Origin: a virus
IMG/VR virus record: IMGVR_UViG_3300050035_000066
Coordinates: 1 to 64,000 of that record
Strand: one strand, 5' to 3'
Length of the DNA stretch: 64,000 nucleotides
Shown: positions 2,320-46,274 of the stretch, in pieces
How the letters are laid out: every line of letters starts with the position of its first letter
Numbering within the stretch: the stretch's first letter is position 1
Program-made: the position numbers and the translations under genes
Notes under the pieces: model-generated
What the model saw: the letters and a program-made list of their open reading frames with translations, nothing else
The model's database searches: none
What the model was told of the DNA's origin: nothing

Positions 2320-3213
2320 TTAGAGAGCGTTGTTTGTTTTGATCGTACCCAGAATGTCATCCAGATTCGTGTTGTCGAAGCTGGTTGGCACTGGGATACT
2401 CTCGTTGATTGTGAGCATCGTGATCCAAGCGTCAGAGAAGATCTTCGCTGCCTTCACTTCTGCATCACGCTGGTAACTCGTGACCTGCTGAGCATAGAGA
2501 GCTTTCTGTTTTCCAACCAGACCAACAACAGGAGTAACACCATCCGTTCGAGTGTCCATGGTCTGAGCACGAGACGTCTCAGTTTGTTCTTCGATCAGAA
2601 GTTCCTGTTTTCCAATCAATGCAACCTGTGCCACTGACTGAGCAACTTGCTGAATTGCAAGTGCGAGTTGTTGAGGCAGAAGGTTATCAATCTGGTACTT
2701 CTGAACACCATACTGTACATCTTCAGTAGCCAGTTTTGCCTTGGTTAATGCATAAGTTGCCTTGGCATTCTGAACCTGAAGTTCAGCTTCAGCATATGCT
2801 AGCTTGGCTGTTTCGAGTGCCACTCGTGCAGTGATTGCTGCAACCTGAGCTTGCACACTCTGCCAATATGCCTGATCCCTGCCAAGCAGGAATGTGACTG
2901 CAAACTGCATGGCATTTTGAGTCATGGCAATGTATGCCTTGGTGTATTCAGCACCAGAGATTCGAGTCTGTTTGTACTCTTCTTTAAGTTGGGCTGAATA
3001 GGAAGCCATCAACACATCGAAGGTACCAGTTCCATCAAGCATCTTGGTAGTCAAGTCGGCATTGGTCAACTTGGGAATTGGAAGATACATGTCTGGTGAA
3101 GTTGGTAACTCATAATCCGCTGATATGAGATCGATGGTAGGCAGAGTTACCGTATCATCAGCCGTCAGTACAGTGAATAGGGCATTTGCATCTGTTTCAA
3201 CACCGTAACTCAT
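2320..3213 (-). CDS. Alpha-helical virion structural protein (297 aa)
   Basis: I chose ATG 3213 (MSYGVETDANALF), preceded by AAAGGA, over the in-frame start 36 nt upstream that lacks a good ribosome site. Residues about 75-240 are mostly Ala/Gln/Leu/Lys with heptad-like spacing, indicating a long helical bundle or coiled coil. The ends are more polar. It lies in the late structural operon between the capsid block and the gp54-like gene. Similar helical proteins occur at this place in N4-like phages as structural proteins; the exact position in the particle is unknown to me. Confidence 0.85.
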   Translation of the reverse strand: MSYGVETDANALFTVLTADDTVTLPTIDLISADYELPTSPDMYLPIPKLTNADLTTKMLDGTGTFDVLMASYSAQLKEEYKQTRISGAEYTKAYIAMTQNAMQFAVTFLLGRDQAYWQSVQAQVAAITARVALETAKLAYAEAELQVQNAKATYALTKAKLATEDVQYGVQKYQIDNLLPQQLALAIQQVAQSVAQVALIGKQELLIEEQTETSRAQTMDTRTDGVTPVVGLVGKQKALYAQQVTSYQRDAEVKAAKIFSDAWITMLTINESIPVPTSFDNTNLDDILGTIKTNNAL

Positions 3214-3240
3214 GATTATCCTTTTCTCTATTACACCAGA

Positions 3241-3262
3241 GTGGCCCACAGAAGTGGGCCAC
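3241..3262 (-). terminator. 9-bp perfect stem-loop between structural genes
   Basis: GTGGCCCAC and GTGGGCCAC pair perfectly around an AGAA/TTCT tetraloop between the 211- and 297-residue genes. No U-run follows on the minus strand, so it may be an attenuator or RNA-stability element rather than a full terminator. Confidence 0.5.
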
Positions 3263-3284
3263 CTAAGTCATGATTGGTTAAACT

Positions 3285-3920
3285 TTAGACCCCACCGGCA
3301 GCAGCCTGTGCAAGTCGAAGACGCTCCAACTCTTCAGGGGTAAGCTGAGGGAGAACTTCAAAAGCAAATTCCTGTGCCCAGCGTTGCTCGACTCGGATCT
3401 TGTCCGTCTTCCGGTCCTTGGTGGTCCGGATGTCGAGGAACTTCCGTTCCTTCAGGTTGTTATAGATGATCATGGGCAGGTGATAACCCTCATCCGTTAC
3501 TTCCCCGTAGGGAATGTACTTGGTGACTGTGCCAATGACTTCATTGCCCACAGTGAAAATCTCGCCGGGTAGATCCTTCTTCTTTGGATCCAAATTAGTA
3601 ATTCGGACTCGGATCAACTTCAGACATTCCAGATTCAACTGCTCTCTCAATGTCAGTTTCTTTCCAGAAGTTCCCACGTTGGGGAGAGAGGGATCAACGA
3701 GTTCCGATACCGGGGGAGAGTCAACTACTGATTTCTCCGGTGCTTCCTGTGCTGCCTTGACCTTGGCACGAAGTGCTTCGAGGCCGATGTTGTTGGAGAA
3801 GGTGACGCCCATAAGACGGGCACGTTGCTTCAGAATCACGATCTCATCTGCGGCCATTGTCGGATCGTCAGAGATGATCTCTTTAGAAGCATCTGTCGAG
3901 TTCAAGATTTCATCAGACAT
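3285..3920 (-). CDS. Virion-associated protein with HeH/LEM-like N-terminal segment (211 aa)
   Basis: Residues about 25-60 (ILKQRARLMGVTFSNNIGLE followed by LRAKVKAA) resemble the HeH/LEM type helix-extended loop-helix found in phage structural proteins. The C-terminal half, about 90-200, is a mixed-charge segment with many Lys/Arg/Thr. It lies directly downstream of the capsid gene in transcription order, separated by a strong stem-loop, and is the next late gene. The position is comparable with N4 gp55, but I cannot verify homology. ATG 3920 is preceded by TTTGAGGAACC. Confidence 0.8.
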   Translation of the reverse strand: MSDEILNSTDASKEIISDDPTMAADEIVILKQRARLMGVTFSNNIGLEALRAKVKAAQEAPEKSVVDSPPVSELVDPSLPNVGTSGKKLTLREQLNLECLKLIRVRITNLDPKKKDLPGEIFTVGNEVIGTVTKYIPYGEVTDEGYHLPMIIYNNLKERKFLDIRTTKDRKTDKIRVEQRWAQEFAFEVLPQLTPEELERLRLAQAAAGGV

Positions 3921-42070: not shown

Positions 42071-44098
42071 ATGCGCTACCTGTCATTTTCAGAACAACCG
42101 ACTTATCCAATTGCAATTCTGGTTTCGGTTATTCGTAAAGATGAGATCTTGCGAGAGTATGTCAATCAGTTCGACATTCCTCAAGACGATGTGATGGTCC
42201 TTGACCTGCACTATGCACAAGGCAAGAAGAAAACTCCCGCAGTTGAAATGAAGCAATACATCACAGAGGAGTTGATTCCAGCATTGACTACGATGGAAGC
42301 CAAATACATTGTGGTTACGGATTCGGAATATTTCAAGATACTCACCAAGGCACAGAGAACCGAAATCAATCTAGGTTATGTGCTTGATTGTGCCTATGGT
42401 GACTTCAAGGTTGTCTACGTTCCGAACTATCGCACGATCTTTTACGATCCGGAAAAAATCAGAGCCAAAATCAAACAAGGAATAAACGCTTTGCTTCATC
42501 ACATTGGTGGCAGCTACAAAGCTCCTGGCAATGGCATTATCAAGTTCGCAGCCTATCCAAAGACAGATGAAGAAATTCAAGCATGGTTGGATAAGTTGCT
42601 GGACATGAACACCGACCTATCTATAGATATTGAAGGCTTCAGCCTCAAGCATTATAAAGCTGGAATTGGAACCATCACTTTCTGTTGGTCAAAGCATGAG
42701 GGAATAGCCTTCCCAGTTGATTACGTTCCCATTCCCGGAGCCACCAGTGCCCCCTATGGTCAACAAGTTCGTAATGAACCAAGAAGGAAAATGCTTCGAG
42801 CCTTTTTTAAGAAGTTCTTGAAGAGAGCTTTGTATCACAGCATCCACTATGATGTGTGTGTACTAATCCAGCAATTGTTCATGTCCAATTTGTTGGATAC
42901 CGAAGGAACATTGAACGGTCTGGATATCCTGCTTAGGAATTGGGAAGACACCAAGCTCATCACTTACTTGGCTACCAACTCCTGTTCAGGAAACAAACTT
43001 TCATTGAAGGATCAAGCTCAGGAATTTGCCGGCAACTACGGCTTGACTGAGATTGAAGACATTAGTCGAATTCCTCTTGATGAACTTTTGCATTATAACC
43101 TCATTGATGGTTTGTCCACTTGGTATACCTATGAAAAGCATTATCCAGTCATGGTAGCTGATCAGCAACTTGATCTCTATCAGGGTCTGTTCAAAGATGC
43201 AATCGTGGATATTATCCAAATGCAGTTGACCGGATTGCCTGTCAACATGAAACGAACTATCGAAGTCAAAAGTCTATTAGAGGCCGATGAAACCAAAGCA
43301 TTGAAGACAATCCTAACCAGCAAAGTGGTGAAAGATTTCACCAAAGTGATGAATAAGGATTGGGTCGTGAAACGCAATGCCAAGTTAAAAGTCAAGAGAG
43401 TCTCACTTTCTGACGCAAATGAAACTTTCAATCCCAATTCCGGACCTCAACTTCAGAAACTGCTTTATGAAATGCTTGTACTGCCGGTGATCTCGTACAC
43501 AGATAGTAAACAACCATCTGTGGACAAAGATACATTGACAGCTTTGGTTCATCACGCCAAGGATCTCGATGCCAAGAATTTTCTTTTGGCTATGATCGAC
43601 TACTCGTCGGTCAACAAGATTCTTACGAGCTTCATTCCAGCTTTAATGGATGCAGCTTTAGGGCCAGATGGTTGGCATTATGTATTTGGCAGTTTCAATC
43701 TGGGAGGAACTGTCTCAGGTCGTCTCAGTAGCTCTGATCCAAATTTACAAAATCTTCCAGCGACGGGAACCAAATATGCAAAGCTGATCAAGAGTTGCTT
43801 CGAGGCACCTCCGGGTTGGTTGTTGTGTGGTTTGGATTTCGCTTCATTGGAAGACAAAATCAGTGCCCTCACAACCAAGGATCCTAACAAGATCAAGGTT
43901 TACACCGATGGTTATGATGGTCACAGTCTCAGAGCACAAGCGTACTTTGGTGATCAAATGCCTAAGATCCGACTATCTAACGGCAGAAGAGCTTTCAAAG
44001 TCACATCATCAACAGGTACGTTGTATTTGCTGGAAGGCGATGTCGTGGTTCTCCCCAATGGTCGGCAAATGCCGATCGAACTAGCGATCACGAATTAG
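42071..44098 (+). CDS. DNA polymerase I family, N-terminal fragment (675 aa)
   Basis: Carries the 3'-5' exonuclease domain (DIEG with Asp186 and Glu188, HYDVC block, and YNLIDG with the third Asp) and the palm up to motif A (GLDFASLEDK, Asp589). It runs to YFGDQMP at residue 631. After that the sequence departs from PolA: residues 632-675 (KIRLSNGRRAFKVTSSTG... ending in ELAITN) are unlike any polymerase segment. Motifs B and C are on the next ORF. The two ORFs are in the same frame, separated by 60 nt with in-frame stops. It would need to pair with the next product for polymerase activity. Confidence 0.9.
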   Translation: MRYLSFSEQPTYPIAILVSVIRKDEILREYVNQFDIPQDDVMVLDLHYAQGKKKTPAVEMKQYITEELIPALTTMEAKYIVVTDSEYFKILTKAQRTEINLGYVLDCAYGDFKVVYVPNYRTIFYDPEKIRAKIKQGINALLHHIGGSYKAPGNGIIKFAAYPKTDEEIQAWLDKLLDMNTDLSIDIEGFSLKHYKAGIGTITFCWSKHEGIAFPVDYVPIPGATSAPYGQQVRNEPRRKMLRAFFKKFLKRALYHSIHYDVCVLIQQLFMSNLLDTEGTLNGLDILLRNWEDTKLITYLATNSCSGNKLSLKDQAQEFAGNYGLTEIEDISRIPLDELLHYNLIDGLSTWYTYEKHYPVMVADQQLDLYQGLFKDAIVDIIQMQLTGLPVNMKRTIEVKSLLEADETKALKTILTSKVVKDFTKVMNKDWVVKRNAKLKVKRVSLSDANETFNPNSGPQLQKLLYEMLVLPVISYTDSKQPSVDKDTLTALVHHAKDLDAKNFLLAMIDYSSVNKILTSFIPALMDAALGPDGWHYVFGSFNLGGTVSGRLSSSDPNLQNLPATGTKYAKLIKSCFEAPPGWLLCGLDFASLEDKISALTTKDPNKIKVYTDGYDGHSLRAQAYFGDQMPKIRLSNGRRAFKVTSSTGTLYLLEGDVVVLPNGRQMPIELAITN

Positions 44099-44108
44099 CC
44101 CCAGCCAA

Positions 44109-44138
44109 TGGCCTCACCTTAGACGGAAGGTGGGGCCA
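44109..44138 (+). other. 12-bp hairpin between polymerase fragments
   Basis: TGGCCTCACCTT (44109-44120) pairs with AAGGTGGGGCCA (44127-44138), with one G-T pair, loop AGACGG, in the gap between polymerase ORFs. No T-run follows. An AAGGAG ribosome site for the second ORF lies beyond it. Confidence 0.6.
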
Positions 44139-44158
44139 TCTGAATTCAAGGAGAAAGC

Positions 44159-44893
44159 ATGATCATAATAGACCCGGCTGCCCAGATCGAAGAAATCACG
44201 CCTAAAGAATTCGACGTGGAATCCATCAACTCCATTCAGTCACTTTACAAAGAACTGAGGCAGGATTCCAAATCTCCAACTTTTGCCCTGACCTATCAGG
44301 GCACGTTCAAAACTCTTATGACCAACTGTGGCTTTACTGAGGTACAGGCTCGCAGCATTGAGGCTCGGTACCATGAACTCTATGCAGTCAGTGATGCTTG
44401 GGTACAAGACAAGTTGGATCAGGCCAGTCAGTGTGGCTACGTGGTCATTGCCTTCGGTCTGAGGATCCGAACTCCTCTGCTGAAACAAGTTGTCAGGGGC
44501 AATCGCAAGACGCCCTACGAGGCAGAATGCGAGGGCAGGACAGCCGGAAATGCACTCGGTCAGAGTTGGTGTTTACTCAATTCGAGAGCCAGCACTGAAT
44601 TCATGGGCAAAGTCCGAGAGTCGGCTCATCGTTTATTCATCAAACCCTGTGCCCACATTCACGACGCCCAATATATCTTAGTGAAGGACAGGATTGATAC
44701 GGTTATATATGCCAATGAGCATCTGGTCAAGGCTGTTCAATGGCAGGACTCTCCAGAGATCGAGCATCCCCTAGTTAAGTTGGGGGGAGAGTTCTCAATC
44801 TTCTGGCCAAGCTGGGCTAAGGAGATCAGCATACCTAATTATGCCACTGAAGAAGAAATCTTCGCCATTGTCAAAAAAGCCATTACAATATAA
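44159..44893 (+). CDS. DNA polymerase I family, C-terminal fragment (244 aa)
   Basis: ATG 44159 with AAGGAG 9 nt upstream. It starts with IDPAAQIEEI and continues into the PolA fingers: motif B RQDSKSPTFALTYQG (Arg34, Lys38, Tyr46), then motif C HIHDAQY (His168, Asp169). It would supply the fingers and the second palm carboxylate missing from the upstream ORF. Together the two ORFs give a complete PolA set except for the unrelated tail on the first. The natural split between motifs A and B is unusual. Confidence 0.9.
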   Translation: MIIIDPAAQIEEITPKEFDVESINSIQSLYKELRQDSKSPTFALTYQGTFKTLMTNCGFTEVQARSIEARYHELYAVSDAWVQDKLDQASQCGYVVIAFGLRIRTPLLKQVVRGNRKTPYEAECEGRTAGNALGQSWCLLNSRASTEFMGKVRESAHRLFIKPCAHIHDAQYILVKDRIDTVIYANEHLVKAVQWQDSPEIEHPLVKLGGEFSIFWPSWAKEISIPNYATEEEIFAIVKKAITI

Positions 44894-44927
44894 ATGCTGT
44901 CTAAACTTGAGTTTGAGGTCTTACATT

Positions 44928-46274
44928 ATGGTTTGTAAAATCCTCGCTGCTTGCCTCTTTCTGAGTGCGACCATCAGTGTCGCTTCACCAATTGCCATCT
45001 CGGCAAACCACATCACCGATGATCACAACGTGACCATCTCTAAAGCTCAGTTATGTTTTGCCCCGGTGAATGCAGCCATGCAGCCGATCGGTTTCCGTTC
45101 AGACACGACCCAAGTGGTCAATAATCCTGTTTGCAACGAGATCGTTGCAGGCGTCATTCAAGGAGTATTGGTCCTGTGGCCGAATTCACCAGGGAGTTAC
45201 TACCATATCTATGCTCAAACTGATTACTCGAATCGGATCATCAGAGATTGGGGAATGGCCTATATTACTTCAGGACCGTGGACACTCGATGCCTTCGATC
45301 CGGATATGGCCATTCTCCCCGTCACTGCCATCACGATAGGAACCATTACAACTGGTTCCCCTTTGACTCCAGCTTCATGCACCATTACTGGTGGAAGCCC
45401 TGCTCTTTTGAACTGTACCATCCCACAAGGGTATACAGGACCAACCGGACCACAAGGATTACCCGGTGGTGCTGTCTACTGGCGAAGTGCTTATGCCAGT
45501 GGTACAACTTACGGTCTTCTCGATGCTGTGAGTTACAACGGGTCGAGTTATGTTTCCATTCTTGGATCCAACATAGGTAATACCCCCGATAGTTCACCGA
45601 CCTACTGGCAACTTCTTGCTGCGGGTGGAACCAACGGGACAAATGGTACCAACGGATCTACTGGTGCTGCTGGAACAAACGGCACGAATGGAACTAACGG
45701 CACGAATGGAACCAATGGTACAAATGGAACTTCTCCATTGGGCACCTCGATCACGAGTCTCACAGTCGGCATGGGTAGTCAGGTCATTACGACCCAAACT
45801 GGCCTAGCCTTTGGCGTTGGTCAGTATGTTCGAGTCGTAGACTCGGCTACTCCGACCAACTACATGGAAGGAATCATTACCGCCTATTCAGGAACGACTT
45901 TAACAGTCAATATTACCGTGACCAGTGGCAGTGGAACCTTCACCACATGGAACATCGTCGTCGCTGGACAGATTGGTGGATCCACAGGAATTGATTACTA
46001 TATCACTTTCACTGGCTGCACTATGGACGTTGGTGGCAATAGCCATGACTGCACAGCAGTTCAAAACTTCTCAGGTGCCACACCAGTGATAAGTCCACCT
46101 GACACTGCTTTTTATCTTCAGTGCAATGCACTGACAGGTTATGATTGGGGAACATCAGTGAATGTGAATTCTCAGACCACGACCAATTTCAATTACAGTA
46201 TTGATGTCGATCGATATAATGGTCTTTCTGCAACATCTTTTCCAGTCATGTGGTGTCACTATCATCACAACTAG
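44928..46274 (+). CDS. Secreted collagen-like fibre or adhesin (448 aa)
   Basis: I chose ATG 44928, with GAGG upstream. Residues 1-19 form a Sec signal peptide (KILAACLFLSATISVAS). At about 160-180 a Gly-Pro segment (YTGPTGPQGLPGG) begins, then a CBM5/12-like module with YWRSAYASGTTYGLLDAVSY. A 35-residue collagen-like GTN/GXX repeat follows at about 230-265 and a beta-rich C-terminal half. The parts fit a trimeric fibre or cell-surface adhesin. Its place right after DNA polymerase and its signal peptide are odd; it may alter the infected cell surface. Confidence 0.8.
   Translation: MVCKILAACLFLSATISVASPIAISANHITDDHNVTISKAQLCFAPVNAAMQPIGFRSDTTQVVNNPVCNEIVAGVIQGVLVLWPNSPGSYYHIYAQTDYSNRIIRDWGMAYITSGPWTLDAFDPDMAILPVTAITIGTITTGSPLTPASCTITGGSPALLNCTIPQGYTGPTGPQGLPGGAVYWRSAYASGTTYGLLDAVSYNGSSYVSILGSNIGNTPDSSPTYWQLLAAGGTNGTNGTNGSTGAAGTNGTNGTNGTNGTNGTNGTSPLGTSITSLTVGMGSQVITTQTGLAFGVGQYVRVVDSATPTNYMEGIITAYSGTTLTVNITVTSGSGTFTTWNIVVAGQIGGSTGIDYYITFTGCTMDVGGNSHDCTAVQNFSGATPVISPPDTAFYLQCNALTGYDWGTSVNVNSQTTTNFNYSIDVDRYNGLSATSFPVMWCHYHHN

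Follow-up and report, generated by a model that had tools for sequence, protein, structure and literature searches.

The 64,000-nucleotide stretch of DNA analysed here (the window) is part of IMG/VR virus record IMGVR_UViG_3300050035_000066, which is 68,476 bp long, and it derives from an N4-like phage (Schitoviridae). Most likely the sole replicative PolA of this phage is a two-subunit enzyme: a homing-endonuclease cassette would have split the gene, the endonuclease would later have been lost, and a C-terminal tail on one product and an N-terminal extension on the other would dock the two halves. That the enzyme is active and assembles through its tails we infer from the lines of evidence laid out below.

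The window carries N4-like hallmark genes for the virion RNA polymerase, portal, major head protein, rIIA and primase. Two adjacent reading frames, ORF1 and ORF2, are the only PolA match within the record, and a search of the record for a family B polymerase found none, so the product of the split gene should work. ORF1 matches the PHROG DNA polymerase family (E 1e-117) as well as Pfam DNA_pol_A and is 63-64% identical to N4-like PolA, and ORF2 matches PHROG DNA polymerase (E 5.8e-43) and is 67% identical to N4 PolA. The two frames lie on the same strand and in the same reading frame, separated by a gap of 60 nt (Table 1). In ORF1, homology to single-gene PolA extends from residue 1 to about residue 633, and in ORF2 it begins at residue 8 or 20; the exonuclease region and motifs A, B and C are all present, in order, spread over the two frames. 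The same PolA protein is matched over most of its length by N4 and more than 460 phage records, usually as a single gene. A first-pass annotation of the window had described a PolA-type polymerase split in two ORFs between motifs A and B, and the ORF map, the homology and relatives with the same split all bear this out. It had put the break at the palm-fingers junction; the break lies instead at the fingers tip, where a loop joins YFGDQMP to INSIQ ahead of the motif B helix.

Table 1. Features of the split polymerase locus, in window coordinates.
Feature	Position	Strand	Basis
ORF1, PolA N-terminal subunit (exonuclease region, thumb, palm to motif A, part of fingers) plus tail, 675 aa	42071..44098	+	PHROG/Pfam, identity to N4-like PolA
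Motif A, GLDFASLEDKI	43829..43861	+	sequence and alignment
C-terminal tail of ORF1, 44 aa (residues 632-675), proposed docking half 1	43964..44095	+	related tails in relatives, purifying selection
Spacer, 60 nt, two further in-frame stops	44099..44158	+	ORF map
Strong spacer hairpin, without T-tract	44108..44139	+	folding energy, z -3.3
ORF2, PolA C-terminal subunit (remaining fingers and palm, motifs B and C), 244 aa	44159..44893	+	PHROG, identity to N4 PolA
ORF2 N-terminal extension MIIIDPAAQIEEITPKEF, 18 aa, proposed docking half 2	44159..44212	+	related extensions in L003, L004, L155, L156, L171, L198
Motif B, RQDSKSPTFALTYQG, uninterrupted in the window	44258..44302	+	sequence and alignment
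Motif C, HIHDAQY	44654..44674	+	sequence and alignment

ORF2 has, as had been noted, an ATG and a ribosome site of its own, with AAGGAG ahead of the ATG at 44159. The hairpin described in the spacer is real, with a folding energy of -24.5 kcal/mol against -15.9 for shuffled sequences. All three of the in-frame stops reported earlier exist, but only two lie in the 60-nt gap, the other being the terminator of ORF1. There is no endonuclease gene at the polA break of the window, and the Pfam HNH model matches nothing in the record. A 382-aa protein encoded at 32112-33257 matches a PHROG labelled HNH endonuclease (E 6e-127), without a Pfam HNH match. A collagen-like gene with Gly-Thr-Asn repeats (44841-46274) lies directly 3' of ORF2.

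Relatives were collected from IMG/VR by a first scan and two alignment-led scans (best 80 matches each), which gave about 210 polA loci, some of them duplicated and most of them on metagenomic contigs. The majority of these loci are intact and others are broken at the codon where the window is broken; in this sample, which is biased to close relatives, the split at the window's codon is found in 20 of 120 distinct polymerases. In the split relatives a related tail of 37-50 residues closes ORF1, and a related extension opens ORF2 in every case where the start is readable (L036, L196 and the later HNH loci are not counted). Only a hairpin lies between the halves in L003 and L004-L006, as in the window, while short or unknown ORFs lie there in L155, L165, L156, L159 and L204. 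A gene of about 647 aa, judged by eye to be ribonucleotide-reductase-like, separates the halves in L171, L173, L179 and L198, and an HNH endonuclease gene does so in L036, L118, L196, L197 and L219-L227 (the end of ORF1 is unrecognisable in the contig of L220). The presence of an HNH gene at the same codon agrees with a homing insertion, one of the causes that the first-pass annotation had put forward. The ribonucleotide-reductase-like gene, at 3608-5551 in L171 and 3622-5568 in L198, is a cargo other than an endonuclease. Hairpins of unrelated sequence stand right after ORF1 in the endonuclease-less split loci (44099-44158 in the window, and L003, L004, L006, L155 and L156), and those of L003 and L004 are terminator-like, with T-tracts.

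PolA is also broken at a second site, about 15 codons upstream (before GYDGHS), in the N4-like phages VEc25, SP5M, PD205 and Pylas of E. coli and Klebsiella. These phages share with the window the split gene and a related tail on its first half; unlike the window, they are broken upstream and retain an endonuclease, as a free-standing HNH gene. Their motif B is uninterrupted. Splits of the group I intron type occur in the polA genes of JA-1 and nACB1, without a tail. Published descriptions treat HNH-split N4-like polymerases as putative introns (PMC3670811, PMC10410586).

Tail and extension are both under purifying selection, indicating that both are protein, and this argues against an intron, a remnant or a pseudogene. 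For the tail, pS and pN are 0.16 and 0.04 in the close pair L004/L006, 0.18 and 0.05 in the close pair L155/L165, and 0.81 and 0.11 in L171/L198. For the ORF2 extension, pS and pN are 0.49 vs 0.06, 0.71 vs 0.25 and 0.71 vs 0.30. Relatedness of the tails was evaluated with leave-one-group-out profiles, each held-out tail being scored with a profile of the other tails against 20,000 shuffles. Most held-out tails outrank nearly all of the 20,000 shuffles, and some single tails fail (p 0.036 for the window, p 0.13 for L003). The tails of VEc25, SP5M and Pylas, which come from the upstream break, are recognised by the profile of window-site tails (p 0.00005-0.00025), and the tail of L224, which comes from a break at the window site, ends like theirs: EGKTYTGEEFYEAF. 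Judged by these sequence comparisons, the tail is one recurring conserved module across the split polA relatives. The 44 residues had been singled out earlier as unlike the polymerase family; they do lie outside PolA homology, but they are not unlike everything else. Searched in public phage genomes, the window tail gave no match, and the VEc25-type tail matched split N4-like polymerases and weak unrelated sequences only. A tail scan with a 50-aa query returned its own contig as the sole match, and no description of tails in PolA was found in the open-access literature.

The split state changes at least 14 times on a quick tree of the polymerases. Flanking DNA is 96% identical between L222 (split) and L125 (intact) and 94-96% identical between L118 (split) and L072 (intact); in both pairs about 90-110 nt of the intact gene are swapped for a cassette of roughly 870-900 nt. 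The cassettes of L118 and L222 hold the tail, the HNH gene, the extension, a diverged half of motif B and an insert. Near-identical intact and split pairs, together with the repeated changes on the tree, indicate that the cassette is mobile. Close relatives of the window carry polA as a single gene, and the window would represent a derived, endonuclease-less state of the cassette, the endonuclease presumably having been lost in this lineage.

Relatives that carry the HNH gene have a further peculiarity: the codons of motif B are interrupted by 1-48 nt in 11 of the 11 HNH-carrying contigs with a readable motif B (10 lineages; L224 is unreadable there). The insert contains a strong hairpin in four lineages (48 nt in L118, 45 nt in L220, 47 nt in L221/L222 and 40 nt in L226), and a stop stands just ahead of the hairpin in L118, L220 and L221/L222. 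Short inserts measure 5 nt in L036 and L219, 6 nt in L197, 9 nt in L227 and 1 nt in L196 and L225. No interruption of motif B was seen in the other loci checked, including the window and the endonuclease-less split loci. These inserts would most readily be read as sites of translational bypass or frameshifting, and those with the strong hairpin resemble the bypass of T4. Established cases of translational bypass outside T4-like phages are, to our knowledge, very few. The inserts of 40-48 nt lie inside the motif B codons of ORF2, flanked by ACN codons, at about 3079-3130 in L118, 1150-1200 in L220, 4205-4257 in L221/L222 and 4145-4190 in L226. The short ones are at about 6113 in L036, 4209 in L219, 4375 in L197 and 4413 in L196, and in motif B of L227 and L225; most of them create a stop, and those of L196 and L225 are +1 shifts after TTT. 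In Acinetobacter phage nACB1 (L217) the motif B codons of polA are interrupted (2755-3608) by what looks like a group I intron carrying an HNH gene. As this HNH, placed at motif B, is related to the HNH of L118 and L036, motif B is likely to be the target of this family of enzymes.

We propose that a homing-endonuclease cassette entered a single ancestral polA at the loop that connects the motif A helices to the motif B helix. From the cassette the upstream fragment would have acquired a C-terminal tail and a stop, while the downstream one would have gained its own ribosome site and start codon along with a short N-terminal extension. Later loss of the endonuclease gene in the lineage of the window would have left a short, hairpin-containing gap. 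The two proteins would be made separately, probably from one mRNA, and tail and extension would pair as beta strands into a small domain that docks the halves at the outer face of the fingers. Such pairing would allow the enzyme to reassemble with no splicing step.

To approximate the heterodimer, ORF1 and ORF2 were modelled as a linked chain with the stops read as residues. This chain folds as a family A polymerase across both halves (mean pLDDT 81; Foldseek match to Taq, E 4e-18). Short strands are predicted in both tail and extension, with a tail pLDDT of about 64-68 in the large model and 76-78 in the small one, and confidence in the docking model is moderate. The structure of the docking piece had no significant match in the PDB, where T4 topoisomerase (8yo3) ranks fourth with a probability of 0.14. 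Most likely, the tail and the extension are the two parts of a split docking domain that would hold the two-subunit enzyme together. An adaptor role for the tail, suggested at first sight of the sequence, is probable. Two stretches of the tail profile also weakly match PDB chain 9hth_A (E 0.005), a 173-aa chain called DNA-directed DNA polymerase; this chain may be an intein, which would point to a possible Hint origin of the docking module.

A two-subunit polymerase is unusual, as the first-pass annotation remarked, but it has a precedent in the phage family B polymerase gp43A/gp43B of Aeromonas phages 25 and 44RR; the spacer is untranslated in 44RR, and the halves from phage 25 co-purify and are active (PMC2988022). 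Like the enzyme of the window, gp43A/gp43B is a replicative phage polymerase in two subunits; it differs in its family and break point, and it gave no match to the tail in a search that had no positive control. A homing endonuclease also splits an essential enzyme in Aeromonas phage Aeh1, where nrdA-a, mobE and nrdA-b lie in series and the two genes still give an active enzyme (PMC2988022). There too an essential enzyme is encoded by two genes, with tails reported on both sides of the break, but the enzyme is NrdA and the endonuclease is still present. Homology between the Aeh1 NrdA tails and the PolA tail was considered and rejected, as the PolA tail profile gives no match to the tail of NrdA-a.

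The evidence must be weighed against other explanations. Two active subunits might be held together by the polymerase interface, leaving tail and extension to bind a replication protein or protect the ends. The halves of a family A polymerase do share a large natural interface, and the docking contacts are ones that we only infer. Against this, tail and extension always co-occur at the break and are conserved at unrelated sites. The analogous tails flanking the break in Aeh1 NrdA are, moreover, said to be interaction domains required for assembly, in work by Crona and colleagues from 2011. We consider the interface-only arrangement unlikely. That the gene is simply broken, through assembly error or as a pseudogene in a phage that uses the host polymerase, is scarcely credible. 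The record is metagenomic, but the same break recurs in many independent contigs, which refutes the suspicion that the stops are assembly errors, and two kinds of isolates are split at a nearby site; all motifs are conserved, purifying selection is seen, and this is the phage's only polymerase.

Splicing could restore a continuous polymerase at either of two levels. At the level of mRNA, the intervening sequence would be a small or degenerate intron; intron-split polA is known in the N4-like phages JA-1 and nACB1, and introns were proposed by the authors who described such splits (PMC3670811, PMC10410586). No Rfam intron was found in the window or its relatives, which is weak evidence since Rfam also missed the JA-1 intron. 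Also speaking against an intron, which we regard as very improbable, are selection on tail and extension as protein, the ribosome site and start of ORF2, the lack of tails at intron-type splits, and the sequence between the halves, which is entirely different from one relative to the next although the tail persists. At the level of protein, a split intein or its remnant would join the halves. Insertion into a conserved polymerase segment and a weak resemblance of the tail profile to the beta strands of Hint proteins would suit an intein, but the tail starts with no Cys or Ser nucleophile, the extension lacks a terminal His-Asn, and the two together are far too short. The profile search that the first-pass annotation had proposed, run on 22 tails with intein families included, gave no Pfam or NCBIfam intein match. 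The intein or splicing cassette suggested there is therefore extremely unlikely, and a two-subunit enzyme docked through tail and extension remains the preferred reading.

In T4, an HNH homing endonuclease splits topoisomerase II in the series gene 39, mobA and gene 60, with a 50-nt translational bypass. Gene 39 is separated from gene 60 by the endonuclease (PMC5009743). The polA loci resemble this arrangement in the HNH split and in the bypass-like inserts that relatives of the window have in the second gene; they differ in the enzyme, and the window lacks both endonuclease and insert. In T4 as a whole, the PolA tail profile matches a single place, the C-terminus of gp39 (E 0.007), which outscores all 50,000 shuffles in one test and has p 6e-5 in another draw. 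The profile scores moderately on the tail of CP220 and weakly on other topoisomerase tails. The reverse test, from topoisomerase tails to PolA tails, is weak, and homology between the ORF2 and gp60 extensions is not significant. In phages 25, 44RR, 65, Abraxas, CP220 and 60AhydR15PP the PolA tail profile found no match, in a search without a positive control. The match to gp39 is significant but short, and because the reverse tests are weak and the extension tests negative, a common origin of the PolA and gp39 tails is probable, not proven.

A broader proposal, which we advance tentatively, is that a reusable docking domain (C-terminal tail plus N-terminal extension) might travel with homing-endonuclease cassettes and make breakage harmless in unrelated essential enzymes, namely PolA, at two sites, and T4-like topoisomerase II. 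The loaded cassette would add a ribosome-hopped insert at the endonuclease target in motif B, so that a replicative DNA polymerase would repeat the T4 mobA-bypass arrangement many times. The locus would offer a natural two-subunit PolA, for which related phages lay out a series of empty site, loaded cassette, cargo and endonuclease-less end state. With this series, it becomes possible to test how essential genes survive fragmentation, and in particular whether the enzyme is assembled by its tails and whether T4 topoisomerase uses the same module. In the relatives, the motif B inserts are strong candidates for translational bypass beyond T4-like phages, and the docking halves might serve as a split-protein connector.

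Tails resembling that of gp39 are visible by eye in phages 65, Abraxas, CP220 and 60AhydR15PP. The unsplit topoisomerase of Aeromonas phage 65 (L304, about 1480-1690) appears, by eye, to contain both tail and extension within a single polypeptide, as would be expected if one small domain had been divided into two parts. In Campylobacter phage CP220 (L306, about 1500-1632) the gp39-like protein ends in a tail, and thymidylate kinase and dUTPase genes come after it.
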